From Caulobacter sp. 32-67-35 (lineage in GTDB: Bacteria > Pseudomonadota > Alphaproteobacteria > Caulobacterales > Caulobacteraceae): a DNA stretch of 64,000 bases. The notes under the pieces are model-generated. The model did no database searches. It was not told where the DNA came from and saw only the letters and a program-made list of their open reading frames with translations. A program made the position numbers and the translations under genes. This document shows positions 38,097 to 55,544 of the stretch, piece by piece. The stretch spans positions 117,224-181,223 of the forward strand of contig NCEV01000009.1 in the NCBI GenBank assembly GCA_002280875.1. Direction: 5' to 3'. Positions within the stretch are counted from its first letter, which is position 1. Each line of letters opens with the position of its first letter.

Positions 38097-38217
38097 CTGC
38101 GACCTTCCGCCTCCCACCGGGCCGCCGCGGGGCCCCTATATGGAGGCCGCTGTATCCTGTAGCTTCCCGCCCTGAATCAGACGCCGACGCGTGCGGCCAG
38201 AAGTGAGACGAGTCCCT

Positions 38218-39034: not shown

Positions 39035-39784
39035 TCAGCGTTCGACGATCATCCGTACCAGATCCAGATCCGCCGGCTTGTCGACATCCACCGCCGCCAG
39101 CCCGTACGAAGACCGCACCGCCGCCGCCCTAACCCCGGCCGCTCGGCCCAGCCGTTCCAGGGTCTCGTCCAGGGTCATCAGCCCCAGGGCGTAGCGCAGC
39201 AGCATCATCGGGCCGATCATCGCCGCGATGCGCCAGGGCTGTTTGCGCAGTCCCTCGACCGTTTGCCAGAAGACCACGGCGTTCAGGGCTGTCTCGTTGC
39301 GCAGCAGGAACAGGTTGCAGCCCGAAAACCGGCCGTCCTTGAACTTCAGATAGGTCCGCTTGGTCTCTGGCGCGGCCGCGCGGACCACCGCCTCGGGGGC
39401 CAGCAGGATGGCGATGTCGCAGTCGGCCGGGGCCTTGGTCAGGAATTCAGTCATCCATTCGGGCTGCAGCAGGGCATGGTCCACCGTGGTGACCAGTAGC
39501 GGCGTCCCCATCAGGCTGGCGCCATCGTGCACGCTCTGGCTGGGACCGCCGGCAGCAGGGAAGGGGCTGACCCTGTCCTGCCCTTCGAGCGCCGAAACGA
39601 CCGCGATGTCTGAGGTCGAGACCCCGATCCGCGTTGCGCCGGCCTGATCCAGCGCGCGCAGCACCCGGGTCAGCAGGGTCTGGCCGCCCAGGACGATCAG
39701 GCCCTTGTGACTGACGCCGGCATAGTCGGCGACCGGGTCGACGCCACCACGCGAGCCCGCCAGAACCAGTGCCTGGAAGCTCAC
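39035..39784 (-). CDS. MobA-like nucleotidyltransferase (sphingolipid locus)
   Basis: The 249-aa product has a MobA/IspD-like fold: ALVLAGSRGGVDPVADYAG in place of the usual LAGGxSxRMGxxK, then HKGLIVLGGQTLLTRVLRAL and TTVDHALLQPEW. Residues 165-210 contain two hydrophobic stretches that may associate with the membrane. The substrate is unknown. GTG 39784 overlaps the bcerS stop (GTGA), so it is the last gene of the coupled HIT-lptF-lptG-bcerS series. That coupling argues for a sphingolipid role. Confidence 0.75.
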   Translation of the reverse strand: MSFQALVLAGSRGGVDPVADYAGVSHKGLIVLGGQTLLTRVLRALDQAGATRIGVSTSDIAVVSALEGQDRVSPFPAAGGPSQSVHDGASLMGTPLLVTTVDHALLQPEWMTEFLTKAPADCDIAILLAPEAVVRAAAPETKRTYLKFKDGRFSGCNLFLLRNETALNAVVFWQTVEGLRKQPWRIAAMIGPMMLLRYALGLMTLDETLERLGRAAGVRAAAVRSSYGLAAVDVDKPADLDLVRMIVER

Positions 39785-40932
39785 AGCGTTTTCTCGTAAA
39801 TCCGATAGGTCTTGTAGATCGTCGCGCCCATGGCCTCGGAGATCCGCCGCATCGGCATGTTCTCCTCCAGCACCCACGAGAACTCGAACTGGGTGTAGCC
39901 CAGCGCCAGCGAAGCGTTACGGCCGGCGTTCATCAGGTGGAACGGCAACAGCTGGCCGCGCATGGTGTCGGCGAACTTGCGTTTCACGCCCATCAGCGGC
40001 ACCCGCGCCGACTTCACGCCGCTCACCTTCAGCCGCCACAGCAGCTTGGCCCAGCCGAACGGCAGCAGCTTACCCTTCAGGTCGGCGATCGCCTCGTTGA
40101 CGTTGGGCAGCAGCACGATGAAGCCCGCCGGCTCGCCGTCGATCTCGGCGAACAGGGTCATCTTCTTCTCGATGACGGGTTTCAGGGCCTTGGCCAGTTG
40201 CCGCGTCTCGGCCTCGGTAGTCGGCACAAAGCCCCAGTTACCCGACCAGGCGTCGTTGAGGATTTCGGTCAGCGAGACGACCTCTTCGTCGTAGCGGCTC
40301 ATGTCCAGCTCTCGCAGCGTCACGCCGTCGGGCAGGCCGCGCCTGACCCGGCGCACCACCACGGCCGGCAGGTCGGCGGTCGGGTCGCACAGATAGGCAT
40401 AGACGTCCTTGGCCTTGGCGTAGCCCTGCTCCTCGACACGGCCGCCGGTATAGGCCGGGTCGTGGCCCATCATCACCATGGGCGGGGTGTCGAAGCCGTC
40501 GACCAGCAGGCCGACCTCTTCATTGACCGACAGGTTGAAGGGCCCCAGCGCTCGGACGCAGCCGCGCGCCCGCAGCCAGTCCTCGGCGGCGCGGAACAGC
40601 AGGCTGAAGATGACCGCATCGTCTTCGGCCGCGATCAGGCCGAAATTGCCGGTCTTCAGGCCGGGCGTCTGCGGCGCCAGGGCGTCGATCTGGGCGCTGA
40701 TCCGGCCCACATCGCGGCCCCCGCGCACAGCCAGCCACAGCTGCACCTCGGCGTGCTCGAAGAACGGGTTGGTCTTGGGCGACAGGGCCTCGGCCCGCTC
40801 CATCATCAGCGGCGTGATCCAGTTGGGATCACCGGCGTTCAGGCGGATGGGCAGCTTGATGAAGCGCGTCAGCTCGGCGCGGGTGCGAACCGGCACGATG
40901 GTGATGTCAGCGCCATGAGAGTCGAACGGCAT
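39781..40932 (-). CDS. bcerS: Bacterial ceramide synthase (acyl-CoA-dependent N-acyltransferase, GNAT-like)
   Basis: The 383-aa protein resembles the GNAT-fold bacterial ceramide synthase characterised in Caulobacter crescentus, which N-acylates 3-oxosphinganine. Visible landmarks are FIKLPIRLNAGDPNWITPL, ALGPFNLSVNEEVGLLVDGFD, EILNDAWSGNWGFVPTTE, PAGFIVLLPNVNEAI and EFSWVLEENMPMRRI. No signal peptide is evident. Its start overlaps the lptG-like stop (TGATG at 40930-40934), and its own stop overlaps the MobA-like start, so synthesis and transport genes are translated as one series. Confidence 0.88.
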   Translation of the reverse strand: MPFDSHGADITIVPVRTRAELTRFIKLPIRLNAGDPNWITPLMMERAEALSPKTNPFFEHAEVQLWLAVRGGRDVGRISAQIDALAPQTPGLKTGNFGLIAAEDDAVIFSLLFRAAEDWLRARGCVRALGPFNLSVNEEVGLLVDGFDTPPMVMMGHDPAYTGGRVEEQGYAKAKDVYAYLCDPTADLPAVVVRRVRRGLPDGVTLRELDMSRYDEEVVSLTEILNDAWSGNWGFVPTTEAETRQLAKALKPVIEKKMTLFAEIDGEPAGFIVLLPNVNEAIADLKGKLLPFGWAKLLWRLKVSGVKSARVPLMGVKRKFADTMRGQLLPFHLMNAGRNASLALGYTQFEFSWVLEENMPMRRISEAMGATIYKTYRIYEKTL

Positions 40933-41993
40933 CAGCCCTCCAGATTGATCAGGGCGTTGATGGCCAGGGCCCCGAAGATCACCGGACCGCCCCAGACCGC
41001 CAGGATGGGCGAGACCGCGCCGCTTTCGCCCAGCGCCGTCAGCAGACCGTCGATCACCAGAAACACCAGGCCAGCCGCCAGTCCTGCTGCGAGTAGCGTC
41101 GCGCCCTGGCTGCTGCGGAAATTGGCCAGGGCGACCGGCGCGCTCAACAGCAGCATGATCAACGCCCCAAAGGGTCCGGCATAGGCGCTCCAGAGACGGG
41201 TCTCATAGTAGCTGGGCGGTCGGTCGGTGCCGCCATTCAGCAGCGCGCGACGGGCTGAACCGGCTGAAGGGGCGGGGTTTTCGGAAAACAGAGCTTGGAT
41301 ATCCTCGGGGCGCAGGGACGAAGCCCAGGTCATCTGGCTGGTGGTCACGGTATCGGCTCGCTCGCCAGCGAAGCGGGTGGTCACAGCCTTCGACAGGCGC
41401 CAGCCCCTGGTGTCGGCGGTGGCCGAAGGCGCCTCGATCCGCTCGATCAAGCGGCCGGTGTTGTCGCGTCGATAGATCTTCACCGCCTCAAGGGTGCGGC
41501 CGTCCGGGCTGCTGCTGGCGGCGATCACCAGATCGTCGCCGACCCTGAAACTGACGGGGCCGGGGGCCTTGCGGTCGGCGGCGGGAGTGTGGGCCTTCCA
41601 CCAGGCGTCGAGGATTGGATCGGTCCGCGGGGCGATCACCTGTGCGCAGGCGAAGTCCAGCAGCATTACTGCCAACGCCGCCGGGGCGGCCATGGCCACG
41701 ATGCGATAGGCCGAGATGCCGGCCGCCCGCATGGCGATCACGGCGCTCTCGCGGGCCAGCTGCGAAAAGGCGAACAGGCCGCCGGCCAGCACGGCGATCG
41801 GGGCGACCTGCTCGAACAGGCGAGGCATGCGCAGGACGGCGTAATAGACCACTCCGCCCAGGCCCAGGCCCCGGTCGAGGATGTCGGTGGTCACCTCCAG
41901 CAGGTCGAGGATCTGCAGGATGCCCATCAGAATGGCGGCGGCGCCGACGATGCGGATCGCGGCGACGCTCAGGACGTAGGATTGCAGCCTCAT
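40932..41993 (-). CDS. LptG-like permease in the sphingolipid locus
   Basis: The 353-aa inner-membrane protein is of the YjgP/YjgQ (LptF/LptG) family: three N-terminal helices (ILMGILQILDLLEVTTDIL, YYAVLRMPRLFEQVAPIAVL), a periplasmic beta-domain at about residues 120-260, and three C-terminal helices (ending ILAVWGGPVIFGALAINAL). LptG pairs with LptF to extract LPS under power of LptB. Here it lies between lptF-like and bcerS, in translational overlap with both, so an LPS-independent lipid substrate is inferred. ATG 41993 is fixed by the ATGA overlap with lptF-like. Confidence 0.85.
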   Translation of the reverse strand: MRLQSYVLSVAAIRIVGAAAILMGILQILDLLEVTTDILDRGLGLGGVVYYAVLRMPRLFEQVAPIAVLAGGLFAFSQLARESAVIAMRAAGISAYRIVAMAAPAALAVMLLDFACAQVIAPRTDPILDAWWKAHTPAADRKAPGPVSFRVGDDLVIAASSSPDGRTLEAVKIYRRDNTGRLIERIEAPSATADTRGWRLSKAVTTRFAGERADTVTTSQMTWASSLRPEDIQALFSENPAPSAGSARRALLNGGTDRPPSYYETRLWSAYAGPFGALIMLLLSAPVALANFRSSQGATLLAAGLAAGLVFLVIDGLLTALGESGAVSPILAVWGGPVIFGALAINALINLEG

Positions 41994-43198
41994 GATGCGG
42001 CCTGTCGTTTCGGAGCGACCATGCGCACCGCTCTGTCGATAGTTTCGCCGATCCGGCGCAGGAGGCGGCTGACAGGGGTGTCGCCGGGCCGCTTGCGGCT
42101 GCCCATGAACATCCACACGCTGAAGCTGGTGAAGATCAGGAACGGCCCCCAGATCGCCAGCAGGGGATTGGCCTTGCCGGCCTCGGCGAGGCTCTGGCCC
42201 ATCAGCAACGAGTGCTGGAAGGCCAGCAGCAGGATGCCGGCCACGACCAGACCCGGGGTGCGGTCGCCGCGCTTTGCGGCCAGACCGAGAGGAAAGGCCA
42301 GCAGGGGCAGGAACGGGAGGAACGCGGCGCGCGCCAAGCGGCCGTACAACTCCGCCAACAGGGTGGACCTGGGCAGGACCGAGGTTCCCGATTCGGCCTG
42401 GCGGGCCAGCTCGCCCAAGGTCAGTTCGCGCTCGTCGCCGCCACGCTCGCGCAGCAGGGTGGCGGCGCCGGCCAGGGGCATTTCGGTGGTCAGCTGGTCG
42501 AAGGCCAGGGTGCGATAGCCGCCGGCCGCGTCTACGCCGACCCGCTGGCCGCGACGCAGCAGAAGGATAACCTTCTCGCCGGCAGGATCGGCGCTGAGAC
42601 TGGCCGTAGCGGCGGTGATCACCTCTTCGCGCCCCTTGTCGTCAAGGCGGCGGATGAAGACACGCGTGAGGCTCTGGCCAGCCGGATCGGCGTCGTCGGC
42701 CGTCATCAGCAGGTTGTTCTCGTCGATAAAGGCGCCGCCAGACAGCCGGCCATTCCAGCCTGCATTGACGGCGGCGTGCATCACCGAGCGATAGGCGTAG
42801 CGGCTGTAGGGCTGGCTGTAGCCGAACAGGGCCACGCTGAAGAGGCTGAGGAACAGGCCGACGCAGACGAACGGGATCGCCACCCGGCTCAGAGACTGAC
42901 CGCTGGCCAGCAGGGCGTCGATCTCGGAGCCGTCCGACAGCTTCGTAATCACGATGAACAGGGCGACAAAGAAGGCCACGGGCAGGGCCAGGCCCAGATA
43001 GTGCGGCACCAGATTGGCGGCCAGTTCAGTGACATAGCCAAAGCGGGCGCTGCTCTGCGACAGCGCGTCGAGCAGGCGCAGGATACGTTCCAGCAGCAGG
43101 GCCACAACGGTGACACCCAGGCAGCCGACGATGGGCCACGCCACCAGCTTGAGCATGTAGCGATCGATCAGGCGCAGGTTGGGCAACGAAGCGCTCAC
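41990..43198 (-). CDS. LptF-like permease in the sphingolipid locus
   Basis: The 402-aa inner-membrane protein has the LptF pattern: LIDRYMLKLVAWPIVGCLGVTV, PHYLGLALPVAFFVALFIVI, SDGSEIDALLASGQSL (the cytoplasmic coupling helix that contacts LptB), a periplasmic domain at about residues 115-270, then LAAKRGDRTPGLVVAG and two further helices. It would form a heterodimer with the adjacent LptG-like protein. GTG 43198 overlaps the HIT-protein stop as GTGA; ATG 43210 is the alternative. No lptB ATPase gene is in the window, so the housekeeping LptB is presumably shared. Confidence 0.85.
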   Translation of the reverse strand: MSASLPNLRLIDRYMLKLVAWPIVGCLGVTVVALLLERILRLLDALSQSSARFGYVTELAANLVPHYLGLALPVAFFVALFIVITKLSDGSEIDALLASGQSLSRVAIPFVCVGLFLSLFSVALFGYSQPYSRYAYRSVMHAAVNAGWNGRLSGGAFIDENNLLMTADDADPAGQSLTRVFIRRLDDKGREEVITAATASLSADPAGEKVILLLRRGQRVGVDAAGGYRTLAFDQLTTEMPLAGAATLLRERGGDERELTLGELARQAESGTSVLPRSTLLAELYGRLARAAFLPFLPLLAFPLGLAAKRGDRTPGLVVAGILLLAFQHSLLMGQSLAEAGKANPLLAIWGPFLIFTSFSVWMFMGSRKRPGDTPVSRLLRRIGETIDRAVRMVAPKRQAAS

Positions 43199-43629
43199 GC
43201 CTTGGACCATTCCCGGGCCAGCATCGCCGCCAGGTCCTTGGCGGCCTCGCCCAGATCGACTGCCGTGGCGAGTGCGGGCGCAGCGGGCCAACCCGCGTCG
43301 GGAAACTCGCGACCCGCGTAGCTGCGTAGGCCCTCGTAGCGGGGAATCACGTGAAAATGCACATCGTGGTCGACCATCATCAGCATCAGGTAGTTGATCT
43401 TCTCATAGGCCACGACCTTGTTCAGCAATCGCTCGATCCCGTCGACCGCGACCTTCAGATCGGCGAAGGCGGCGGGACTTAGCTGGGAGAACGCGTCTGC
43501 CTTTTCCTTGCATATGAGGACCAAGGCCCCAAATGTCGGCTGTTTTGGGCGCACAAGCACAAGCCAATAGTCGGTCTCGGCCACCTTGGTCTCAGGATAG
43601 CCAAAGTTTACGGCGGTGGAATTGGTCAT
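43195..43629 (-). CDS. HIT-family nucleotide hydrolase/transferase
   Basis: The 144-aa histidine-triad protein has DHDVHFHVIPRY, a variant of HxHxHxx with the catalytic histidine in the HFHV segment. Family members cleave nucleotide-phosphate bonds such as AMP-lysine, ADP-sugars or dinucleoside polyphosphates. Being first in the operon and overlapping the lptF-like start, it may recycle a nucleotide by-product of the head-group reactions, but this is inference. ATG 43629 gives a normal family length. Confidence 0.85.
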   Translation of the reverse strand: MTNSTAVNFGYPETKVAETDYWLVLVRPKQPTFGALVLICKEKADAFSQLSPAAFADLKVAVDGIERLLNKVVAYEKINYLMLMMVDHDVHFHVIPRYEGLRSYAGREFPDAGWPAAPALATAVDLGEAAKDLAAMLAREWSKA

Positions 43630-43712
43630 GTGCAGGCTCGCCTCGTGGCGTTGACCGCCGCCGATTCACAATAGGGACCCGGCCTTTTTCATGGAAGTGC
43701 GATCAGCGTTGT

Positions 43713-44165
43713 TTGTCTCGGCCCTGGCTGGCCGTGCTCATCACGGCCGCGCCGGCGATGGCTGAGCCGGACTGCGCCGGTCGCGCAAGCGCCACAAGGC
43801 TCACGGTGCAGGTTTCCCAGCTATCCTCGGCCGTCGGTAAGGTCGTGGTTACCCTCTATCCGTCCAACCCACGCCGCTTTCTGGCCCCGCGCGGCAAGCT
43901 GCTACGGCTGCGGGTCAAGGCCGTCACGCCAATGACGAGAGCCTGTTTCAATCTGCCGGGGCCGGACGTCTACGCCGTGGCGGTCTATCATGATGCAAAC
44001 GCCAATGAGGATTTCGACCGCAACCGCCTGGGCATGCCCACCGAGGGGTTCGGCTTCTCCAATGACGCTCCCACGCAGTTTGGCCTGCCCTCGTTTGAGT
44101 CCGCACGCTTTGTGGCCCAGCCCGGCGACAATACCCTGCGGGTTGGGATGCGCTATCAGCGCTGA
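43713..44165 (+). CDS. DUF2141 family periplasmic protein
   Basis: The mature protein is clear: a signal-like stretch LAVLITAAPAMAEPDCA followed by LTVQVSQLSSAVGKVVVTLY, AVAVYHDANANEDFDRNRLGMPTEGFGFSND and a C-terminal beta-strand, as in DUF2141 proteins of unknown function. The start is uncertain. TTG 43713 gives a plausible 150-aa precursor, but an ATG at 43691 opens a signal-like peptide (MEVRSALFVSALAG) in another frame. A one-base indel between them is possible. It is divergent from the HIT gene. Confidence 0.7.
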   Translation: MSRPWLAVLITAAPAMAEPDCAGRASATRLTVQVSQLSSAVGKVVVTLYPSNPRRFLAPRGKLLRLRVKAVTPMTRACFNLPGPDVYAVAVYHDANANEDFDRNRLGMPTEGFGFSNDAPTQFGLPSFESARFVAQPGDNTLRVGMRYQR

Positions 44166-44168
44166 ACC

Positions 44169-44187
44169 AGAGAGCGTTCCGCTCTCT
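44169..44187. terminator. Short hairpin between convergent genes
   Basis: AGAGAGCG (44169-44176) pairs with CGCTCTCT (44180-44187) around a 3-base loop, three bases past the DUF2141 stop and 24 bases from the metallophosphoesterase stop. There is no strong T-tract, so termination may be partial. Confidence 0.45.
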
Positions 44188-44210
44188 TCGGCGAAGCGGG
44201 CCTTGCAGGC

Positions 44211-45128
44211 CTAGGCCAGAACGTAGCGCCCCAGCTCCGCAGGCTGGCCCGTTTCCGGATCCAGGCCCCGTGCGACCACGCGGACAGAAACAGGAGCCGA
44301 CCCGGTGCGCGTGATTTCGATCGCGTGCCAGCGCGCCGCAGGATGGTTGCCCTTACCGAGCGCCGAGGCCGAGGGAACGCCCAGCACTGGGATCGCCAAG
44401 CCGCTTGGGCCAGGCAGGGCCGCAACGAGACTCTCGTGGGCATGGCCATGCAGCACCAGATCGGCGCTCTGGCGGGTCAGGATCGCGCGCAGGGCGTCCA
44501 GGTCCTCCAGGGACTTGCGCCTGGAGACGGCGCCCTGGAGCGGCGGATGATGGATCAGGACAACGCGAAAGAGGTCACGATGGGCCGGATCAGCGAGCAG
44601 GGCCTCCAGTCGGGCCAGTTGCGCGTCGCCCAGCCGGCCGGTGGCGAGGTGCGGCGCGGTGGGAATGGCGGAACACAGGTTGATGATCGCCACGCCGTCG
44701 CGGATCCGGAGCCTGGGAAAAGCGATGTCGTCGCCGTCGCCCAGCCAGGCGGACCACACCGCGAAGCGATCGGGAGTTCTGGCGCCCACGAGCGCGTCGT
44801 GGTTGCCGGGGCTGAGAGTGACGCTATCTGTAGCGCCAAGTCCGCTCAGCCACTGGCGTGCGGCCTCGATCTCGACAGCCGACGCGAAATTGGTCAGGTC
44901 GCCCGTGATGGCGATATGGTCGGGCGCATAGGCCTTGATATCGGCGATGAGGGCCGCCAGCACCCAGGGCTGATGTTCCTTTTGCTTGCGGCGCCACGCA
45001 ATGCGGCTCAGCAGGCGCTTGGAAACGATATCCCGCCAGCCAAAAGCGCCCGGGGGCGGCGGCAGATGCGGGTCGGAAAGGTGGGCAATGCGGAATATCG
45101 ACAAGTCAGAATCGCGCTTTTTCGCCAT
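44211..45128 (-). CDS. Calcineurin-like metallophosphoesterase
   Basis: The 305-aa protein carries the full metallophosphoesterase signature: AHLSDPHLP (DxH), AITGDLTNF (GDxxN variant), SPGNHDALV (GNHD), VVLIHHPPLQ and LHGHAHES (GHxH). No membrane segment or signal peptide is seen, so it should act in the cytoplasm. It is divergent from the CDP-alcohol transferase (54 bases) and sits inside the sphingolipid locus, where it could remove a phosphate from a head-group intermediate, act on a lipid phosphate, or be unrelated. ATG 45128 starts the conserved domain. Confidence 0.85.
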   Translation of the reverse strand: MAKKRDSDLSIFRIAHLSDPHLPPPPGAFGWRDIVSKRLLSRIAWRRKQKEHQPWVLAALIADIKAYAPDHIAITGDLTNFASAVEIEAARQWLSGLGATDSVTLSPGNHDALVGARTPDRFAVWSAWLGDGDDIAFPRLRIRDGVAIINLCSAIPTAPHLATGRLGDAQLARLEALLADPAHRDLFRVVLIHHPPLQGAVSRRKSLEDLDALRAILTRQSADLVLHGHAHESLVAALPGPSGLAIPVLGVPSASALGKGNHPAARWHAIEITRTGSAPVSVRVVARGLDPETGQPAELGRYVLA

Positions 45129-45182
45129 AAACGAGGCAAAGCTGCTTATCACTCGCCACGGGTTTCCAGGGGTTCTCGCACA

Positions 45183-46298
45183 TTGACCGGCGGAAGTAAT
45201 CAAGGCGCCTGCGCCAAGCCTGTGGCCGTAACAGTTGGCCAGGCCTCTACGCGCATCTGGGGTATGACCTCGGCTCAGCGGCTGTCGCGGATCTATGCGC
45301 GCGTGGGGCTGAGCGAAGTCACGCGCGAGACGGCGCCTGCCATCGGCGACGTGGTCGTCGTCGACGCCGGCTGGGTGTTCGATGAGGCGCTGATCCGCGC
45401 CCTGGCCGGGCGGCCCGGCGTGGCCCTGGTGGACGAGACCGGACGCATCGTGGCCGCTCACCTGCCGTCTAGCGCGGGCGAGGACCTTTCCGCCATCGCC
45501 GCTGACGTTCCGCGCCTGACGGCCATGGAGCTGGGCTCGGCCTATAACAGCGAACTGCGCAAGCGCGAGCCGCCGGTGCTGGAGCGCTTGACGCCGGAAA
45601 CGGTCGACGCGGTCGAGAAGCGATTGTTCAAGGGCTCCTACAAGGGCGTCACCGATCTTGTGACCAAGTATGTCTGGCCCGCGCCGGCCCGGGTTGTCAC
45701 CCGCTGGTGCGCCCTGGCCAAGCTGACGCCCAACATGGTGACCTTCGCCAGCTTCCTGATGGTGCTGGCCGCGTTCTGGCTGTTCTGGACGGGCCAATAT
45801 GGCTTGGGCCTGGTCTGCGCCTGGATCATGACCTTCCTCGACACCGTGGATGGCAAGCTGGCCCGGGTGACCCTGACCTCGTCCAAATGGGGCAATGTCT
45901 TCGACCACGGTATCGACCTGATCCATCCGCCCTTCTGGTGGTGGGCCTGGTTCGTCGGCCTGGGCGCGCTGGGCTTCGCCGTGCCGCATGGCGGACTGCT
46001 GCTGGCCATTGTGGTGGGCGGCTATGTGGCCCAGCGGGTGGAGGAGGGGATCTTTCTCTCCCTTTTCAAGGTCGAGATGCATGCCTGGCGGCCGTTCGAC
46101 AGTTTCTTCCGGCTGATCACCGCGCGCCGCAATCCCAACCTGCTGTTCTTGACCGCCTCGACCGCAGTTGGCCGTCCAGACGTGGGGTTTGTCCTTGTGG
46201 CGGCCTGGACCGCGATCTGCTTCGTCGTTCACGCCAGCCAGATCGTTCAGGGCCTGCTGACGCCCCGCGGCGGCGTCACGTCCTGGCTGTCGCGCTGA
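45183..46298 (+). CDS. cpgC: CDP-alcohol phosphatidyltransferase (CpgC-like)
   Basis: The 371-aa protein has an N-terminal region (about 1-150, GQASTRIWGMTSAQRLSRIY) of nucleotidyltransferase-like character, then a membrane CDP-alcohol transferase domain with the exact signature D-x2-D-G-x2-A-R-x8-G-x3-D-x3-D (FLDTVDGKLAR ... GNVFDHGID). In Caulobacter crescentus the equivalent gene is needed for ceramide phosphoglycerate. TTG 45183 (AGGGG upstream) keeps the conserved N-terminus; GTG 45222 and ATG 45264 are alternatives. Its stop shares a base with the next start (TGATG). Confidence 0.83.
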   Translation: MTGGSNQGACAKPVAVTVGQASTRIWGMTSAQRLSRIYARVGLSEVTRETAPAIGDVVVVDAGWVFDEALIRALAGRPGVALVDETGRIVAAHLPSSAGEDLSAIAADVPRLTAMELGSAYNSELRKREPPVLERLTPETVDAVEKRLFKGSYKGVTDLVTKYVWPAPARVVTRWCALAKLTPNMVTFASFLMVLAAFWLFWTGQYGLGLVCAWIMTFLDTVDGKLARVTLTSSKWGNVFDHGIDLIHPPFWWWAWFVGLGALGFAVPHGGLLLAIVVGGYVAQRVEEGIFLSLFKVEMHAWRPFDSFFRLITARRNPNLLFLTASTAVGRPDVGFVLVAAWTAICFVVHASQIVQGLLTPRGGVTSWLSR

Positions 46299-48152: not shown

Positions 48153-48175
48153 TCTGGCGCGTCGTCCTGATTGCG

Positions 48176-49393
48176 TCAGGCCGAAACGCGCTGGCGCTGG
48201 TTGTCGATCAGGCCCAGGGCCTGGCCGAGCTGCGCGAAGACCGACAAGACCTTGTCGATCTGCTCGTCAGTATGGGCTGCGCTGACACTGGTCCGCAGCA
48301 GCGGTCGGCTATCCGGCGTGGCGGGCGGCAAGGCAAGGTTCAGATAGACCCCGTTCTGCAGCAGAGCATTCCACATGCCGATGGCGCTCTCCTGATCGGG
48401 CATGGTGACGGCAACGATCGGGCTGGCGGTGGGGCCGGTCTGGAAGCCCAGTTCGCTCAGGCCGTCATACAGGCGGCGGGCGTTGGCCATCAGGCGATGA
48501 CGCAGCTGCGGGCTTTCCTCCAGGCGCTTGAGGGCGACCAGGGTCGAGCTGACGACAGCCGGCGGCAGCGAGGCGGTGAACATGTAGGGGCGGCAGACCA
48601 CGCGCATGACGTCGAAGTCGTCCATATTGCTGACGCAGAAGCCGCCGATGGCGCCCAGGCTCTTGGAGAAGGTGCCGACCACGAAGTCGACGTCGTCCTC
48701 GACGCCTTCCTGCTCGGCCAGGCCGCGACCGTTCTCGCCCAGCACGCCCATCGAGTGGGCTTCGTCGACCAGCAGATAGCCGCCCAGCTCGCGCTTCACG
48801 GCGGCGATTTCCTTGAGCGGCGCGGTGTCGCCGATCATCGAATAGATGCCTTCGACCACGATCAGGCGCTCGCCGGGCATGTCCTTCATGCGCTTGAGGC
48901 GCTTGTAGAGGTCTTCGGGATCGTTGTGGCGGAAGCGGATAACCTCGGCGTGGCCCAGACGGGAGCCGTCATAGATGCTGGCGTGGCTGTCGGCGTCCAG
49001 GATCAGGTGGTCTCCGCGACCCACCAGGGTCGACAGGACGCCCAGATTGGCCTGATAGCCGGTGGTGAAGACCATGGCGTGCTTGCGGCGATAGAACTTG
49101 GCCAGGGCGTGTTCAAGCTCGACATGCGCCTCGAAACTGCCGTTCGCGATCCGCGAACCGGTCGTCCCGGTGCCTCGCTCCTGCACAGCCTTGACCGACG
49201 CGGCGATGCTCTCAGCGTCGAAGGTCAGGCCAAGATAGTTGTTGGTGCCGAGCAGGATCGTTGGGCGCCCGTCAATAACGCCCTCGGTCGGTGAAACCAC
49301 CGCGTCGAGTCGAACGTTGAAGGGATCGGCCCCGGCTTGCCGGATCGCCTGATAGGCGTCGCGGTAGGCTAGGTGTTTGTCGAACAGCCCCAT
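48176..49393 (-). CDS. spt: Serine palmitoyltransferase
   Basis: The 405-aa PLP enzyme is an alpha-oxoamine synthase. The Schiff-base lysine is at about residue 243 in VVGTFSKSLGAIGGF. Supporting motifs are FTTGYQANLGVLSTL, DADSHASIYDG, RHNDPEDLYKRL and LLVDEAHSMGVLG. It condenses serine with a long acyl donor to 3-oxosphinganine, the first step of sphingolipid synthesis. An acp gene starts three bases upstream, so the donor is probably acyl-ACP rather than acyl-CoA, as in related bacteria. Other family members (KBL, AONS) are less likely in this context. Confidence 0.95.
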   Translation of the reverse strand: MGLFDKHLAYRDAYQAIRQAGADPFNVRLDAVVSPTEGVIDGRPTILLGTNNYLGLTFDAESIAASVKAVQERGTGTTGSRIANGSFEAHVELEHALAKFYRRKHAMVFTTGYQANLGVLSTLVGRGDHLILDADSHASIYDGSRLGHAEVIRFRHNDPEDLYKRLKRMKDMPGERLIVVEGIYSMIGDTAPLKEIAAVKRELGGYLLVDEAHSMGVLGENGRGLAEQEGVEDDVDFVVGTFSKSLGAIGGFCVSNMDDFDVMRVVCRPYMFTASLPPAVVSSTLVALKRLEESPQLRHRLMANARRLYDGLSELGFQTGPTASPIVAVTMPDQESAIGMWNALLQNGVYLNLALPPATPDSRPLLRTSVSAAHTDEQIDKVLSVFAQLGQALGLIDNQRQRVSA

Positions 49394-49395
49394 AG

Positions 49396-49647
49396 TTATC
49401 CCTTGTTCCGAAGTTCTTTTATCAAATTGGACAAGTCGCCCGCCGTCTCGACCGAGGCCAGACGATCAAGCGGGATCGAGATGTCGAATGCGTCTTCCAG
49501 TTCCATGATGATGTTCATCAGGGCCAGGGAATCGACCTGCAGGTCTCGGCCGATGTGAGTCTCGTCCGAAACCTCCACGCTGCGCCCCAGCACTGAGGAC
49601 GCCGCAAGGCCAATTTCACGCAAGGTAAGATCTGTAACCGCTTTCAT
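49396..49647 (-). CDS. Dedicated acyl carrier protein for sphingolipid synthesis
   Basis: The 83-aa acidic four-helix protein has the phosphopantetheine serine at residue 40 in LQVDSLALMNIIMELEDAF (the DSL motif). It differs from housekeeping AcpP, which has DSLDTVEL. It lies two bases before spt and 85 bases after cerR. It would be charged by the acyl-ACP synthetase two genes upstream and would hand the chain to Spt. Confidence 0.93.
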   Translation of the reverse strand: MKAVTDLTLREIGLAASSVLGRSVEVSDETHIGRDLQVDSLALMNIIMELEDAFDISIPLDRLASVETAGDLSNLIKELRNKG

Positions 49648-49693
49648 GCCGACTCGCTGACGCCCCCGTGAGCGGGCCTAACTGACTCGAATT

Positions 49694-49723
49694 GTAACAG
49701 CCCTGTTGTCGGAATCCTGTCAA
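49694..49723 (-). promoter_or_regulatory. Promoter for acp-spt inside the sphingolipid operon
   Basis: On the minus strand, TTGACAG (49723-49717) is followed after 15 bases by GCTGTTAC (49701-49694), close to the Caulobacter housekeeping pattern TTGACGS-N10-14-GCTANAWC. It lies about 46 bases upstream of the acp start, in the only gap longer than 20 bases in this minus-strand gene series. Confidence 0.5.
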
Positions 49724-49732
49724 AATAGGCTG

Positions 49733-50683
49733 CTATAGTTCTCTCAACGCAACTAAAAACCCCTTGGCGCGATACCATTGCACGCTTTGGGCGAACCCTG
49801 ACTCTATCCCGTACCGTGGAGCGATAGCCCGCGGCAGCATCTCGCTGTCCGAAACGCTCCAATCCAGATGGAGCATTTCGCGCGCTTTTCCAGTCGTGAA
49901 AATGGAAATCTTCCCAATGGCGAGTGAGACGCCTTCGGACAATCGCGCCAAGGCTTTGATTAGCCAGGTTGGCACGCGCCCGATATGTGGCTTTTTGCCC
50001 ACTGCGCCAGCGGCGGCCGTCATCACTTCGGTCCAGCTGTAACCGTCGGTGCGGCTGTCCGACAGGGCGAAAAGGCCTGATCTGGGATCGCCGGCCAGTC
50101 CGGTGATTGCGGCGACCGCATCGTCAACGTGGATCATAGCGATCCTGGCCGCCGGATCGAGCACGGGCAGAAACGGCGCGCTCTGGGCAGCCTTGAACAG
50201 ACCCAGGGTCTCCATGTCGCCTGGGCCATAGATCGCGGGCGGCCGCACGATTGTCAGACGCTCTCCGAAGGCGTCACGGGCCGCATCCTCGCCGCCGCGC
50301 TTGCTGGCCGCATAGTCAGACAGACCCGGCTCCCGCGCCGCCAGGCTGGAAACCAGGATCAGCCGTCCGCCCGCTGCTTTGGCCGCGCTGGCGACGTCAC
50401 GGGCGCCGTGGACATTTGTACGGTCAAATTCCGCCCGCGAGCGCGCCTTGATCAGGCCCGCGACATGGATGATCACGGCGGCGCCGCTGCAAAGCCTCTC
50501 CAAGGCTGCGGGATCCGACAGCCCGCCGATCACGACCTGGGGCTCCAGCCCCGCCCAGTCCGGATCGATGATGTCGCGGCGAGCCAGGATGCGGACGGTC
50601 CAGCCGTCGGCAAACAGGGCGGTGACGAGTCGCCGGCCCAGAAAACCGGTGGCGCCGGTAACGGCGACGACACCCCGGCTCAT
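49733..50683 (-). CDS. cerR: 3-oxo-sphingolipid (ceramide) reductase, NAD-dependent epimerase fold
   Basis: The 316-aa extended short-chain dehydrogenase has the cofactor loop VAVTGATGFLGRRL at residues 6-19, SSLAA with the catalytic YAASK (LSDYAASKRGGED), and IVRPPAIYGPGD. In Caulobacter the homologue CerR reduces the 3-oxo group after N-acylation, giving ceramide. That order is reversed compared with eukaryotes. ATG 50683 is close behind the acyl-ACP synthetase stop (two-base gap). The longer frame to 50980 overlaps that gene and is rejected. Confidence 0.9.
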   Translation of the reverse strand: MSRGVVAVTGATGFLGRRLVTALFADGWTVRILARRDIIDPDWAGLEPQVVIGGLSDPAALERLCSGAAVIIHVAGLIKARSRAEFDRTNVHGARDVASAAKAAGGRLILVSSLAAREPGLSDYAASKRGGEDAARDAFGERLTIVRPPAIYGPGDMETLGLFKAAQSAPFLPVLDPAARIAMIHVDDAVAAITGLAGDPRSGLFALSDSRTDGYSWTEVMTAAAGAVGKKPHIGRVPTWLIKALARLSEGVSLAIGKISIFTTGKAREMLHLDWSVSDSEMLPRAIAPRYGIESGFAQSVQWYRAKGFLVALREL

Positions 50684-50685
50684 GC

Positions 50686-52386
50686 TCAGGCGCGCTCGGT
50701 ATAGGCGCCGGCCAGGAAAGCGGCCTTGGCCTTGGAGCGGCTCAGCTTGCCTGAGGAGGTCTGGGGCAGGGCGTGGGCGCCGACGAGGTGCACCTGCACC
50801 TCGACGCTGTGGCGCAGCCTCAGCACGGTGGCGACGTTCTCGGCGAGGGCCTTGCGGGTCTCGGGATCGCCGCCGCGCGCCTGGACCAGCACGACCACCA
50901 CCTCTTCGCCCGCGCCGGGCGTCGAGAAGGCGGCGACGTCGCCGCTGCGCAAGGACTCGATCTCGGCCTCGGCGGTCCATTCCAGGTCCTGCGGCCAGAT
51001 GTTGCGGCCGTTGAGGATGATCAGGTCCTTGCCACGCCCGGTGATGACGATCTCGCCGTCGATCAGATAGCCAAGGTCACCGGTGTCCAGCCAGCCGTCG
51101 GCCGACAGCACGCGGGCGGTCTCTTCGGGCTGCTCGAAATATTCCCGCATCAGGCTTGGGCCGCGCGCATAGATCCTGCCAACGCCGCGCTCGGGCAGAA
51201 CCGCGCCGTCATCTCCGCGCACTTCCAGTTCGTGGTGCGGGAGGACAGGGCCATTGCGGGCGAAGTCGCGCGCGCGGTCGGTGTCGGTGGTGATCACCGC
51301 CAGGCCCTGTTCCAGCTGTTCGACGTCCAGGGTCTCGACCTTCAAGCCCTCGCCCAGCGGTGACATCGACAAGGCCAGGGTGGCCTCGGCCATGCCATAG
51401 CTGGCGACAAAGGCGCTGTCGGAGAAGCCTACGGTCTTGAAGCGTTCTGCGAAGGCCCGCAGGGGGCCGGTTCGGATCATGTCGCCGCCCAGGCCGGCGC
51501 TGCGCCAGCCCGAAAGGTCCAGATGCTCGATCGAGGCGGCCTCGGCCCGGCGGGCGCACAGCTCATAGCCGAAGGTCGGGCTATAGCTGATCGTGCCGCC
51601 ATTCTTCGTCATCAGGTCCAGCCACATCAGCGGCCGGCGCACGAAGGCCCCGGTGGGCAGCAGGTCGACCGTCATCTGGCTGGTCATGGGGCTGAGCAGG
51701 AAGCCGATCAGGCCCATGTCGTGATAGAGCGGCAGCCACGAGATCGCGCGGTCTTCAGGCCGCACTTGCAGGCCATCGCGGGTGATCGCCTGGGCATTGG
51801 CCATCAAGGCGCGATGCGTGACCACGACGCCGGTCGGAAAGCGCGTGCTGCCCGACGAGAACTGCAGATAGCACGTCCGGTCAGGCTCGATGACAGGCAA
51901 CGGCGCGCCGTCGGCGGCCGGCAGGTCGGCCAGGGTTCCGGCGAAGCTCAGGGGTTGCCTGGCGACGACCTCGGGCAGCCACGCCGCCATTGAGGCCGGG
52001 CCGATCAGCACCGAAGCCTTGGCCGAGGCCAGCATCCGGGCGATCTGCTCGATATAGGCCTCGCGCCCCCCCAGGGGCGCGGGTAGCGGCAGGGGCGCGG
52101 GTGGCAGGCCGGCATACTGGCAGGCGAAGAAGGCGCGGACGAAGTCGGCGTCGGTCTCGGCGATCAGGCCCACGCTGTCGCCGGGCTTGGCGCCGGCTGC
52201 CAGCAGGCGCTGAGCCAGCTCGACCGCCTGCTGGCGGAGCCTGGCATAGGGCAGGGCCTCGACCAGTTCGCCGCGCAGGGAAAACAGGTTCACGCCCGTC
52301 TCGCCGGTGGCAGCGAAGTCGAGCGCGGCGGTCAGGGTGGGGAAATCGGCGAAACGAACCGTTCGCGCGGCGCCAGTCGGAGTCAT
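50686..52386 (-). CDS. Fatty acyl-AMP ligase / acyl-ACP synthetase
   Basis: The 566-aa adenylating enzyme has the ATP loop YLQFSSGSTRFPTGVVVTH, SWLPLYHDMGLIGFLLSPM, VASYGMAEATLALS and WLDTGDLGYLIDGEIVITGRGKDLII. These are features of the FAAL branch, which activates fatty acids as acyl-AMP and loads ACP instead of CoA. It would charge the neighbouring acp for Spt. Three tandem ATG codons overlap the flippase stop (TGATGATGATG). I chose the third (52386), which sits about eight bases from the AGG site; 52392 is possible. Confidence 0.9.
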   Translation of the reverse strand: MTPTGAARTVRFADFPTLTAALDFAATGETGVNLFSLRGELVEALPYARLRQQAVELAQRLLAAGAKPGDSVGLIAETDADFVRAFFACQYAGLPPAPLPLPAPLGGREAYIEQIARMLASAKASVLIGPASMAAWLPEVVARQPLSFAGTLADLPAADGAPLPVIEPDRTCYLQFSSGSTRFPTGVVVTHRALMANAQAITRDGLQVRPEDRAISWLPLYHDMGLIGFLLSPMTSQMTVDLLPTGAFVRRPLMWLDLMTKNGGTISYSPTFGYELCARRAEAASIEHLDLSGWRSAGLGGDMIRTGPLRAFAERFKTVGFSDSAFVASYGMAEATLALSMSPLGEGLKVETLDVEQLEQGLAVITTDTDRARDFARNGPVLPHHELEVRGDDGAVLPERGVGRIYARGPSLMREYFEQPEETARVLSADGWLDTGDLGYLIDGEIVITGRGKDLIILNGRNIWPQDLEWTAEAEIESLRSGDVAAFSTPGAGEEVVVVLVQARGGDPETRKALAENVATVLRLRHSVEVQVHLVGAHALPQTSSGKLSRSKAKAAFLAGAYTERA

Positions 52387-52391
52387 CATCA

Positions 52392-53750
52392 TCACCTGCC
52401 GCCTTTGGCGTCTTTTGCGTCTTCGGCGCAAGAGGGTTCGTTGTCTCCGACCACCGACGATCGTGCAAGTCGCACGCGCAGTGCCAGAAACATCCCGATC
52501 GCCATGGCCAGGGCCGCGCCGACCAGCGCCGTGCCGGCTCCGTTCAGGCCCCAGGTCTGGACCAGCGGCGTCAGCGCCAGAAGGAAGACCGCACAGACCA
52601 CCATGCGGACACGCAGGGCGTCGCCCGGCGCGCGCATCGACACCAGCATGGGTTCGAGCGGCAGGGCCAGCACGCCAATCGCGGCGGCGGCCACCTGCCA
52701 GGTCATGACGCCTGCCGCCGATTCATAAGCCTTGCCCATGACCAGGATCAGGAGCGGTTTGCCAAACAGGGTAGTGATCAGCAGCAGCACGCCGGCCACC
52801 GCGCCGCCCAGCAGGGCGATCTGGCCGGCCAGTTTGCGCATTGCCGCGTCGCCGCCCATGGCGCGCATCTTGGCCAGTTCGGGATAGAGCGCAGGGATAA
52901 CCAGCCGGGCGGGCTTGGCCATGCCATCGGCCACCTGCCGGCCGATCCGCCAAAGCGCAGCCTGGGTAGGACCCAGCAGGGCGCCGACCATCAGGGTGAT
53001 CACATGGGTGAAGGCCACGTCCAGACTGCTGCTGAAATTGGTCGCCCAGGCAAATTTCCAGACGCCCGGCAAACCCTCGCTCAACGCGCCGCGCAGGCGA
53101 AAACCCTCCAGCAGGTTCCGGCGGCCCATTTCGCGCCAGGCGACGATCCCGACATAGAGAAAGGAGACCAGGGGGCCGAGGGCCCAGGCCAGCAGGAAAG
53201 CCCATAGGGGGGCGTGGGTCGATAAGGCGATGGCCGCGCCGATCAGCCGAACCGTGGAGCTGATGGCCTGCTCACCGGCCAGGTAACGGAACTTGTCGAA
53301 CAGACGCAGCAGGCCCACCGAGGTGGCCGACGTCATCACGAAGATGGTCAGGGCGTAGAGCGCCGCGATGGGCGCGACCTGGGACGACCAGCCCAGCACC
53401 GGCCCAAGCAGAAATGCGCCGCCGACGCCGAGCGTAACCCCTGCCAGTCCGCTGACCAGGTCCAGGAACAGCGACAGCCGCACCACCTGCTGGAAGCGCG
53501 GGCGATCGCCCTCCAGCAGCGGCCCGGCGCCATATTGCAGCACGGTCTGCCAGGACTGGAACTTGACCACGTCGCCCAGGAACTGGGCGAAGGCGTTGAT
53601 CAGCACCAGAACGCCCATCTGGGCCGGGCTGAGCCCTCGGGCCGTCAGGGCGATATAGCCCAGGCTGACAACGGCGTTGACCGTCCGGCCACCCAGCAGG
53701 GTTCCAGCGTTGGCCAGCACCCGGGCCAGGATGGAGCGCTCGGCGCTCAT
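52392..53750 (-). CDS. Oligosaccharide/lipid flippase-like membrane protein (MATE/Wzx type)
   Basis: The 452-aa protein has about 12-14 hydrophobic helices, with LARVLANAGTLLGGRTVNAVVSLGYIALTARGLSP at the N-terminus in separate segments and a PALYPELAKMRA loop, as in Wzx/MurJ-like exporters. It may flip a lipid-linked intermediate or the finished sphingolipid across the inner membrane, as inferred from its position between the TagF-like and acyl-ACP synthetase genes. It is coupled to both by overlaps. The substrate is unknown. Confidence 0.8.
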   Translation of the reverse strand: MSAERSILARVLANAGTLLGGRTVNAVVSLGYIALTARGLSPAQMGVLVLINAFAQFLGDVVKFQSWQTVLQYGAGPLLEGDRPRFQQVVRLSLFLDLVSGLAGVTLGVGGAFLLGPVLGWSSQVAPIAALYALTIFVMTSATSVGLLRLFDKFRYLAGEQAISSTVRLIGAAIALSTHAPLWAFLLAWALGPLVSFLYVGIVAWREMGRRNLLEGFRLRGALSEGLPGVWKFAWATNFSSSLDVAFTHVITLMVGALLGPTQAALWRIGRQVADGMAKPARLVIPALYPELAKMRAMGGDAAMRKLAGQIALLGGAVAGVLLLITTLFGKPLLILVMGKAYESAAGVMTWQVAAAAIGVLALPLEPMLVSMRAPGDALRVRMVVCAVFLLALTPLVQTWGLNGAGTALVGAALAMAIGMFLALRVRLARSSVVGDNEPSCAEDAKDAKGGR

Positions 53751-54910
53751 CCGGCCTGGCGGACCCTGGCCAACACGCGCTCGGCGATCGCCTGGGCTGC
53801 GCGCTGCGAGGACGGGGTGTCGGTCAGGTCAAAGCTCTGGGCGAAGCCAGTTTTCTGGGCCTGCAGATAGTCGCCATGACCCATGCGGGCCGCCTCGACA
53901 GCGTCGATCAGGCGGTCGGTCGACGCCAGCACCGGGCCATAGCGCCAGTGGTGGAAGCTCTCGTCGTCCTGCCAGTCCGCGTTTGACGGATTGAGGAACA
54001 GGCAGGGCTTGGGCGTGCGCAGGAACTCGTAGACCTGGCTGGAGACGTCGCCCAGATAGATGTCGGCGGCGCGGGTATAGGTCATGTCGATGGCGGCGGG
54101 GCCGCCCAAATCGATATGGATGCGGGGATGGTCGCGGAACGGGGCCAGGCTCTCCAGCATGGCCGGAGTGGCGCCGTCGAACAGCCGGATGTGCGGCGCG
54201 AAGATCAGGTTGAAGCGATCATTCGCCGCGAACTGCTCCAGCACGCTGACGCCAAAACGCGGCCACGAGCCCAGGGTCGCGTGGAAGTGCGGGTTGTAGA
54301 TCACGATTGGCTTTGCGTCGGGAAAGCTCGGTAGCGGCGAGCCGGGCAGGGCGTCGATGATGTCGAACTTGGGATAGCCGACCATGGCGCAGTTTTCGGG
54401 CTTCACCCAGCCCCCGTCGACCATGCGGGCGCGCTGTTTGGGTCCTGCGGCCATCACCAGATCGAACTGGCGCAGACGTGGCTCGAACACCCCGCCGCGA
54501 TCGCCGGCCCCGTGCTGGGTATAGACCAGCAGCGACTTGCGAACGCCCAGCTTGCGCAGCAGGGCTGTGGTGCGTTCCGGCGTGACGATGGCGTCCATCC
54601 GGCCCAGGGCCAGGGCGTTGGCGGCCAGCATCAGGGCCTTGGGCGGGGTCGAATCCTCCTTCAGGCGCACCCTGCGCAGCCAGGCCGGCGGCAGCAGCCG
54701 GGAGGCGATGGGGGCGCCGCCCAGCGCGTCCAGCAACTGGCGTGCGTAGTCGAGATGATCCTGGGTGGTGGCCGCGATCTCGACCTCAAGGCCCGGCCAG
54801 CCCTTGGCCAGGGCGACGGCGATGGGCAGGCTGTGGAGGATCTGGTGCGTCTGCGCGATGTAGAGAAAACAGACCTTGGGTCTGGATATGGCGGTCTTTG
54901 CCGGGGTCAT
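53747..54910 (-). CDS. CDP-glycerol glycerophosphotransferase-like protein (TagF-type)
   Basis: The 387-aa GT-B-like protein has LLVYTQHGAGDRGG, IVIYNPHFHATLGSWPRFG, NLIFAPHIRLF and DIYLGDVSSQVYEFL, the last being the counterpart of the TagF ITDYSS motif. Family members add glycerol phosphate from CDP-glycerol to lipid-linked acceptors. In the sphingolipid locus it is a candidate for adding phosphoglycerate, including the second unit of the di-phosphoglycerate species. It has no membrane segment. It is coupled to the flippase gene by ATGA at 53747-53750. Confidence 0.8.
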   Translation of the reverse strand: MTPAKTAISRPKVCFLYIAQTHQILHSLPIAVALAKGWPGLEVEIAATTQDHLDYARQLLDALGGAPIASRLLPPAWLRRVRLKEDSTPPKALMLAANALALGRMDAIVTPERTTALLRKLGVRKSLLVYTQHGAGDRGGVFEPRLRQFDLVMAAGPKQRARMVDGGWVKPENCAMVGYPKFDIIDALPGSPLPSFPDAKPIVIYNPHFHATLGSWPRFGVSVLEQFAANDRFNLIFAPHIRLFDGATPAMLESLAPFRDHPRIHIDLGGPAAIDMTYTRAADIYLGDVSSQVYEFLRTPKPCLFLNPSNADWQDDESFHHWRYGPVLASTDRLIDAVEAARMGHGDYLQAQKTGFAQSFDLTDTPSSQRAAQAIAERVLARVRQAG

Positions 54911-54929
54911 GAGCGCGTCGCCGGCCGGT

Positions 54930-55544
54930 TCAATTGCCGGGATTGAGGCGCGAGCGCACTCGGCCCTTGAAGATCACCCGGTCGCCCTTGTCCGTGACGG
55001 AATAGCTATCGGCCTTGACCTGGGCGCCAGAGGCGGCGCCCTCGACACCGGCGTCGCCCATCAGCTCGCCGGTGCGCGTGTCGATGACCGCCTTCTCGGT
55101 CTTGAAGGCGTAGCCGTCGCCATTCTCGATCTCCACTCGGCCTGTCAGCAGCAGGGCGCCCTTGGCCTCGTCATAGTTTCCCTGTCTGGCCACGACCCGG
55201 GTTGGATTGTCGGAACCGTAGCCACGCGTGAGCTCGGGGGCTTCCAGCGCGACCTTGTTGGGGTCGACCTTGTCGCGAATGGCGGCGGTGGCGACGATCA
55301 GGAACTCGCGGCCATCCTTCATCGTGCCCGTGAAGCGCGGGTTTTCCATCCGCAATGGGGCGCTGGTCACCGTGATTGAGGCCTTGGCCCGGGCAGCGCG
55401 GATGACAGCCTGGGTCGCGATCGCGCCGCCTACGATCAGGGCTAGGGCCGGCAGGGCCAGTCGCAGCGCGCTGATCGACTTACGCCGGCGCGGTCGGATT
55501 TTACGCCTCAAGACGAGGGCTGAAGACGGAGCAAACGAGGTCAT
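54930..55544 (-). CDS. LptC-like periplasmic lipid-transport protein
   Basis: The 204-aa product has a basic N-terminus (RRKIRPRRRKS), one membrane anchor at about residues 28-50 (ALRLALPALALIVGGAIA) and a periplasmic LptC/OstA-like beta-jellyroll (ENPRFTGTMKDGREFLIVA, VARQGNYDEAKGALLLTG, IFKGRVRSRLNP). LptC receives lipid from LptFG and passes it to LptA. It is the first gene of the minus-strand sphingolipid series, 19 bases before the TagF-like gene, so a role in sphingolipid export is inferred. ATG 55544 was chosen over TTG 55553. Confidence 0.82.
   Translation of the reverse strand: MTSFAPSSALVLRRKIRPRRRKSISALRLALPALALIVGGAIATQAVIRAARAKASITVTSAPLRMENPRFTGTMKDGREFLIVATAAIRDKVDPNKVALEAPELTRGYGSDNPTRVVARQGNYDEAKGALLLTGRVEIENGDGYAFKTEKAVIDTRTGELMGDAGVEGAASGAQVKADSYSVTDKGDRVIFKGRVRSRLNPGN

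Follow-up and report, generated by a model that had tools for sequence, protein, structure and literature searches.

A second LptF-LptG pair in a Caulobacter sphingolipid locus: comparative evidence for a sphingolipid-dedicated permease on a shared Lpt bridge

LptF, LptG and LptC extract lipopolysaccharide (LPS) from the inner membrane and begin the bridge that leads to the outer membrane, and Caulobacter lacking lipid A is reportedly viable when fur is missing. Here we describe lptF-, lptG- and lptC-like genes (lptF2, lptG2 and lptC2) that lie in a sphingolipid locus of Caulobacter sp. 32-67-35, within a window of 64,000 nucleotides (contig NCEV01000009.1, positions 117,224 to 181,223; coordinates below are those of the window) from a genome of 4.1 Mb that is 96% complete and consists of 163 contigs. 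The cluster spans 38.2-55.5 kb and has the gene order published for CC_1168 to CC_1152 of Caulobacter crescentus (PMC11324152), the equivalence of the CC numbers resting on gene order and family (Table 1). A minus-strand run starting at 55.5 kb comprises lptC2, genes for a Glyphos_transf-like and a flippase-type protein, aasR, cerR, acpR and spt, and a plus-strand run at about 45.3-48.1 kb contains the counterparts of CC_1161, which is required for ceramide phosphoglycerate in Caulobacter, of CC_1160, a lipid kinase gene that specifies ceramide kinase, and of the CDP-alcohol transferase gene CC_1159 (PMC11324152). The remainder is made up of a phosphoesterase gene (minus), a DUF2141 gene (plus), the HIT, lptF2, lptG2, bcerS and nucleotidyltransferase genes (minus) and a second nucleotidyltransferase gene (plus); an ABC ATPase was not found within the cluster. 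A preliminary description of this DNA, made from the sequence alone, had placed an lptC-like gene at the head of a sphingolipid run opposing lptFG. The gene does head that run, and the orientation has to be corrected: both lie on the minus strand, and the strand opposing the two alike is that of the plus run between them.

The same description had claimed translational overlap of the lptF- and lptG-like genes with each other, with the HIT gene and with the ceramide synthase gene, and every junction indeed overlaps in the sequence. The HIT stop codon (43197-43195) overlaps both candidate starts of lptF2 (ATG at 43210; GTG at 43198, as GTGA), the lptF2 stop overlaps the lptG2 ATG (ATGA, 41993-41990), the lptG2 stop and the bcerS ATG have one base in common (TGATG, 40932), and the bcerS stop overlaps the GTG of the next gene (GTGA, 39784-39781), the overlaps at these four junctions ranging from 1 to 16 bases. 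Pfam and NCBIfam scans of the bacterial ceramide synthase (bCerS) gave no match; its nearest named homologue among the best 80 of at least 582 relatives is that of Caulobacter endophyticus (76% identity). The HIT gene CC_1157 of C. crescentus was considered probably unrelated, and no high cofitness was reported for it (PMC11324152). Among loci bearing bCerS and LptF2, however, a HIT gene directly precedes LptF2 in 37 of the 54 named ones and in 9 of the 36 others, which argues against an unrelated gene.

The genome contains four matches to PF03739, namely the pair of the sphingolipid locus and a pair on contig C126 near the sole lptD. The former scores 236 bits (LptF2) and 222.8 bits (LptG2) against a cut-off of 27.9 and covers profile positions 2-350 and 1-351, respectively, of 353. 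Its best NCBIfam matches are the LptF and LptG equivalogs, both under cut-off (187.2 vs 230 and 233.6 vs 240 bits), and in a tree of the PF03739 family one protein falls into the LptF half and the other into the LptG half. LptC is matched twice, one of the genes being located on contig C122 adjoining LptA-like and LptB genes. The LptA-like protein matches TIGR03002 at 6e-16, under cut-off, and this LptB is the genome's only equivalog above cut-off (362.6 bits; runner-up 144.5) among 52 matches to the LptB profile, of which the sole one on the locus contig lies about 95 kb beyond the window. LptD is present in a single copy, and LpxC was found. Since canonical lptFG adjoins the only lptD, and canonical lptC-lptA-lptB and lpxC are also present, the lptFG genes of the sphingolipid locus are a second set beside the canonical one. 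The preliminary description had foreseen such a set, with canonical lptF, lptG and lptC genes elsewhere in the genome; the LptB and, perhaps, LptD that it supposed to be borrowed from the LPS machine do look borrowed, there being one LptB above cut-off and one LptD.

For comparison, 385 alphaproteobacterial genomes were screened for bCerS, and 50, our own included, were positive. The 49 others and 31 bCerS-negative controls (80 genomes) were searched with profiles for PF03739, LpxC, LptD, LptC and LpxB, and the PF03739 search was repeated in ten genomes for a full list of positions. The controls are a non-random set, taken in handle order with four relatives first and several small or incomplete genomes skipped. 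Trees of LptF and LptG domains were calculated for 172 and then 179 domains; they include control LptFG from 20 of the 31 controls, the other 11 being left out, and omit one locus that was a duplicate, a repeated entry for the G246 locus, a split LptG-like match of G256 and a short LptF-like match of G022 (G and L numbers are our handles for genomes and loci). In the 172-domain tree, LptF2 and LptG2 formed two clades without canonical or control members, each of which held all 25 loci from 24 genomes without LPS genes and 17 LpxC-positive genomes. FastTree support for the LptF2 and LptG2 clades was 1.0 and 0.98 with 172 domains and 0.996 and 0.96 with 179 domains, and fast IQ-TREE trees of 91 and 89 sequences gave SH-aLRT values of 99.3 and 97.4. 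The locus LptFG, hereafter type 2, does not cluster with the lptD-linked canonical pairs, and the proteins of the two kinds share only about 21% identity within the same genome (15 genomes); thus, the trees of both sets that the preliminary description had called for keep them apart. In G244, a third PF03739 match joins the LptF2 side on a long branch; this divergent LptF2-like protein (L132:3174-4511), a lone extra one, is encoded close to a DUF2141 gene and apart from the main locus.

The two kinds of LptFG are distributed very differently. Among the 49 other bCerS genomes, LpxC is present in 22 and absent in 27. Canonical LptFG occurs in all 23 LpxC-positive bCerS genomes (own included) and in none of the 27 LpxC-negative ones (Fisher p = 9e-15 when genomes are counted and 1.3e-7 when families are, with 15 LpxC-positive vs 11 LpxC-negative families). 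Type 2, on the other hand, is found in 19 of 23 LpxC-positive and 24 of 27 LpxC-negative genomes, and the co-occurrence of the second set with bcerS across alphaproteobacteria that had been suggested is thus seen in 43 of 50 genomes, the LptG2 of G256 being unplaced in the tree. LpxB likewise gave no match in 25 of the 27 LpxC-negative genomes; it was also unmatched in two of the 22 LpxC-positive ones (G027 and G227), both of which are fragmented. An rsmA+pdxA tree was made for 43 genomes, among them 18 of the 24 that have type 2 and no LPS genes; Fitch parsimony on this tree requires seven or more changes of LPS state, corresponding to about seven LPS-less lineages, a number that weak deep nodes make approximate. 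The controls had two PF03739 matches in 25 of 31 cases, four in G022, three in G025 (one whole, two part-length), one each in G030, G031 and G038 and none in G024. Three controls were without LpxC: G019 and G023, assemblies that are fragmented or 71% complete, each with LpxB and two LptFG matches, and G024, in which LpxC, LpxB, LptFG and LptD were all unmatched. Type 2 is therefore a distinct, sphingolipid-linked clade and the LptFG of sphingolipid makers without LPS genes. The correlation of LptFG types with LPS genes is a natural experiment that is new relative to the published proposal for Caulobacter taken up below. That the locus pair is the housekeeping LPS exporter, or a redundant spare for it, is barely credible on this evidence: it shares families and gene order with lptFG, yet the pair that adjoins lptD is the canonical one, type 2 stands in separate clades, and 24 LpxC-negative genomes have LptFG of no other kind.

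The type-2 pair of LPS-less genomes lies within about 10 kb of bCerS in 23 of 24 cases, the exception being G192, where it is located about 24 kb away beside other genes of the cluster. LPS-less G341 has two bCerS loci (L073 and L074), each with its own type-2 pair. Where type 2 and LpxC occur together (19 genomes), the pair is found inside the retrieved bCerS locus in 13 and elsewhere in six; four of these distant pairs (G026, G256, G158 and G124) sit among sphingolipid head-group genes, while on the short stretches available for the other two only HIT and DUF2141 genes (G343) or nothing more (G227) accompany them. The 80 named bCerS loci, which are the best 80 of the at least 582 relatives, contain type 2 in 56 cases, a further kind (type 3) in seven and canonical LptFG in none; 17 are unscored, having no LptFG domain of scorable length, two of them showing only partial domains where the contig ends. 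Alpha-, beta- and gammaproteobacterial records are all represented among the 80 named loci. The recurrence of type-2 LptFG beside sphingolipid genes in so many related loci indicates that the linkage is not due to chance. The pair might still export another envelope lipid encoded nearby and be tied to sphingolipids only indirectly, as the head-group genes do vary among loci; we consider this highly improbable, because the recurring neighbours, across the three proteobacterial classes, are Spt, bCerS, CerR, AasR and ceramide head-group genes, and further LptFG types also occur at sphingolipid-type loci. We had also entertained acquisition of the cluster by transfer, as bCerS is lacking in three sampled members of the family and in one of the order. 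This idea was dropped, as the best-matching named records with the same gene order include Caulobacter and Phenylobacterium, so that loss in those relatives is just as likely.

Genomes with type 2 that lack LPS genes also keep further parts of the bridge, namely LptD, in a single copy in 24 of 24, and usually LptB and LptC. LptC was found in 19 of the 24, and in 12 of 14 LPS-less loci examined LptB adjoins it, with 56-65% identity to the LptB of our genome. This has a bearing on another explanation, in which LptF2G2 and LptB act at the inner membrane alone, relocating sphingolipid intermediates there to serve CerR or the transfer of head groups, for instance, while a different route leads outward. 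The coupling to bCerS and the position among biosynthetic genes would suit such a role. The retention of LptD, and usually of LptC and LptB, fits a whole bridge instead, though LptD could serve otherwise, and LptD and LptC are missing from precisely those three bCerS genomes that have no LptFG; local movement thus appears unlikely.

The residues of the two kinds were compared for 43 canonical and 45 type-2 LptF and for 43 and 43 LptG sequences, with LptB contacts taken from PMC5548808. Key contacts are kept: in LptF, E84 is conserved in 100% of canonical and 100% of type-2 proteins and Y6 in 93% and 98%, and in LptG the values are 100% and 98% for E88 and 100% and 95% for Y10. Positions 26, 29 and 30 in the first transmembrane helix (TM1) of type-2 LptF are Leu, Glu and Arg (93, 96 and 82%), differing from canonical LptF. 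Positions 40-41 of LptG are Arg-Arg in canonical alphaproteobacterial proteins (88 and 77%) and carry net negative charge in type 2 (means -0.35 and -0.53), E. coli numbering around K34-K41 being ambiguous by a few residues in the alignment. As the pair is not conserved in E. coli and the double mutant grows (PMC5548808), this charge shift is only a hint. Overall, the residue pattern fits the same motor working with a different cargo pocket.

LptC2 is a different case. The protein matches PF06835 above cut-off (44.4 vs 21 bits) and the NCBIfam LptC equivalog under it (28 vs 38), and a hydrophobic stretch near residues 30-50 is apparent by eye. A second LptC was found with the Pfam profile in none of the 22 other LpxC-positive bCerS genomes, although this profile may miss divergent LptC, and LptC2 is absent from three beta- and gammaproteobacteria (PMC11324152). 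Its candidacy as a core part therefore finds no support outside this genome. The dedicated set of F, G and C proteins postulated in the preliminary description is thus supported for LptF2 and LptG2; judged by its distribution in the sampled genomes, this pair is the conserved unit and LptC2 is not a general part.

Taken together, the comparative evidence for a sphingolipid-dedicated LptFG on a shared bridge is strong. We put the probability at roughly 0.8 that LptF2-LptG2 is a second LptFG permease pair specialised in sphingolipids, which serves as the cargo selector for a shared LptB/C/A/D bridge. The pair would form a complex with LptB and extract sphingolipids from the inner membrane, and these would be delivered to the outer membrane via the shared components. 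The cargo probably extends beyond ceramide phosphoglycerates to other sphingolipids, given that several LPS-less loci have no such head-group genes nearby. Cofitness in C. crescentus points in the same direction, CC_1159 being cofit with CC_1168 (0.78) and CC_1156 (0.60) (PMC11324152).

Several observations weigh against this assignment. Four of the 23 LpxC-positive bCerS genomes are without type 2, two of them with another type (G246 and G355) and two (G035 and G079) with no second pair; G079 has ceramide genes and none of the sought head-group genes within 10 kb. In a single genus, three bCerS genomes without LPS genes (G066, G280 and G358) gave no match in profile searches for LptF/G, LptD, LptC, LpxC and LpxB, so that some sphingolipid makers do without LptFG; these genomes are 99-100% complete and contain bCerS, Spt, CerR and AasR (L036, L067 and L077). 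A match to our genome's LptA was found in only five of the 14 LPS-less LptC loci. The absence of LPS is inferred from LpxC and LpxB, and two LpxC-negative genomes (G058 and G275) have divergent LpxB matches above cut-off. When the named loci were included, giving a tree of 299 sequences, support was 0.99 for LptF2 and only 0.53 for the whole LptG2 clade. Hydrophobic LptB contacts are mostly Ala in type 2 (64% at V87 of LptF and 74% at V91 of LptG), and the open-access literature searched yielded no transport experiment on a second LptFG.

The idea of export is already in print as a proposal for Caulobacter: LptC2, LptF2 and LptG2 of C. crescentus (CC_1168, CC_1156 and CC_1155), which resemble the present locus in gene order and family, were proposed to transport phosphosphingolipids selectively (PMC11324152). 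Within the open-access literature, most subscription papers and bioRxiv being outside its scope, this is the only paper found to tie a second LptF/LptG to sphingolipids; the excerpts of it neither present a tree comparing the two kinds of LptFG nor count how many LPS-less genomes carry the canonical kind, and they mention no further type. With the E. coli system (LptB2FGC-LptA-LptDE), type 2 has the permease family and the key LptB-contact residues in common; it is unlike an LPS transporter of that type in its low identity to the canonical pair of its own genome, its TM1 residues, its sphingolipid linkage and its presence without LPS genes. The Lpt-like system of Borrelia burgdorferi likewise provides Lpt-type transport in an LPS-lacking diderm, and the opening of the abstract connects it neither with sphingolipid genes nor with a second pair of permeases (PMC10353723).

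Table 1. Genes of the sphingolipid cluster in the window and the basis of their assignment
Feature	Position	Strand	Basis and remarks
nucleotidyl transferase (CC_1152 position)	38191..38973	+	PF00483
MobA-like NTP transferase (CC_1153 position)	39035..39784	-	PF12804
bacterial ceramide synthase bCerS (CC_1154 position)	39781..40932	-	cluster position compared with PMC11324152
lptG2, LptG-like permease type 2	40932..41993	-	PF03739 8.5e-70
lptF2, LptF-like permease type 2	41990..43210	-	PF03739 8.5e-66; start ATG 43210 or GTG 43198
HIT-domain protein, upstream of and coupled to lptF2 (CC_1157 position)	43195..43629	-	PF01230 1.6e-5
DUF2141 protein	43533..44165	+	PF09912; longest open reading frame, start provisional
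calcineurin-like phosphoesterase (CC_1158 position)	44211..45128	-	PF00149; start chosen among candidates
CDP-alcohol phosphatidyltransferase (CC_1159 position)	45264..46298	+	PF01066; start chosen among candidates
DAGK-type lipid kinase (CC_1160 position)	46298..47215	+	PF00781
CC_1161-position protein	47212..48141	+	position; Pfam scan without match
serine palmitoyltransferase Spt	48176..49393	-	PF00155 and position
acyl carrier protein AcpR, candidate	49396..49647	-	position; open reading frame of 83 amino acids with D-S-L stretch
ceramide reductase CerR	49733..50683	-	PF01370; start chosen among candidates
acyl-ACP synthetase AasR	50686..52392	-	PF00501; start chosen among candidates
flippase, candidate (CC_1166 position)	52392..53750	-	PF01943 Polysacc_synt
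Glyphos_transf-like protein (CC_1167 position)	53747..54910	-	PF04464 0.0007, under cut-off
lptC2, LptC-like, first gene of the ceramide-synthesis run	54930..55544	-	PF06835 1.8e-11, above cut-off; ATG start

Type 2 is not the only LptFG kind at sphingolipid loci. Type 3 was found in G355, G246 and seven named loci and groups with E. coli LptF and LptG (FastTree 0.994 and 1.0; SH-aLRT 99.1 and 100), E. coli being the only non-alphaproteobacterial reference added deliberately and the other beta- and gammaproteobacterial sequences being type-2 or type-3 pairs. The type-3 pair of Nitrospirillum amazonense (L178, 14166-19128) is accompanied by myo-inositol-1-phosphate synthase (PF01658) and by frames resembling the nucleotidyltransferase and the CDP-alcohol transferase. 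Type 3 and the synthase were seen together in bCerS clusters of Nitrospirillum, Acidocella and others (L178, L076, L174, L176 and L169). Among 146 loci and the window, the synthase occurs in ten loci, with a 25-residue piece in L175: in six of nine type-3 genomes or records (L169, L174, L176, L178, G355 and G246, in the latter on a contig other than that of LptFG), in two type-2 loci (L163 and L167), in the G022 locus and in L184, where the fetched stretch contains no LptFG. It is not present in type-3 L177, L223 and L228, and a strict rule that the LptFG type tracks the head group was rejected on account of this distribution. A search of the open-access literature for inositol phosphorylceramide in alphaproteobacteria returned nothing.

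Control genome G022, with four PF03739 matches and no bCerS, was taken up as a possible counterexample and set aside, as its extra pair lies in a run of Spt-like and inositol genes. This contiguous plus-strand run (L133:2997-13369) encodes an Spt-like protein, a DUF4833 protein, myo-inositol-1-phosphate synthase, an SDR protein, a cytidylyltransferase and a very divergent LptF and LptG, followed by a glycosyltransferase, an FGGY kinase and a CDP-alcohol transferase, an arrangement that suggests a locus for inositol sphingolipids equipped with LptFG of its own.

That type 2 is present and canonical LptFG absent in most sampled LPS-less sphingolipid makers suggests that a common export bridge can carry different lipids when just one of its parts is exchanged. 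We lean, with some reserve, towards a still wider picture in which the Lpt bridge serves as a general chassis for exporting lipids and LptFG pairs can be exchanged as adaptors for different cargo. Distinct lineages of such pairs would have come to sphingolipid loci by three or more separate recruitments: that of type 2, mostly together with genes of the ceramide phosphoglycerate type; that of type 3, the closest sampled to E. coli LptFG and mostly found with inositol-1-phosphate synthase genes; and that of the very divergent pair of the bCerS-less locus with Spt-like and inositol genes. On loss of LPS, the sphingolipid pair may have taken over the whole bridge, LptD becoming a sphingolipid translocon.

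The route of bacterial sphingolipids to the outer membrane was called unknown in 2024 (PMC11324152; PMC11087976, legend to Figure 6). Our finding offers a specific candidate machine for this route and makes a clear-cut genetic prediction; bacteria in which LPS genes are missing but LptD is retained, and in which the sphingolipid type is the sole LptFG, serve as natural knock-outs. If the proposed function is correct, it would explain why Lpt parts persist in the absence of LPS, and LptFG would be the substrate-selecting module of the bridge.

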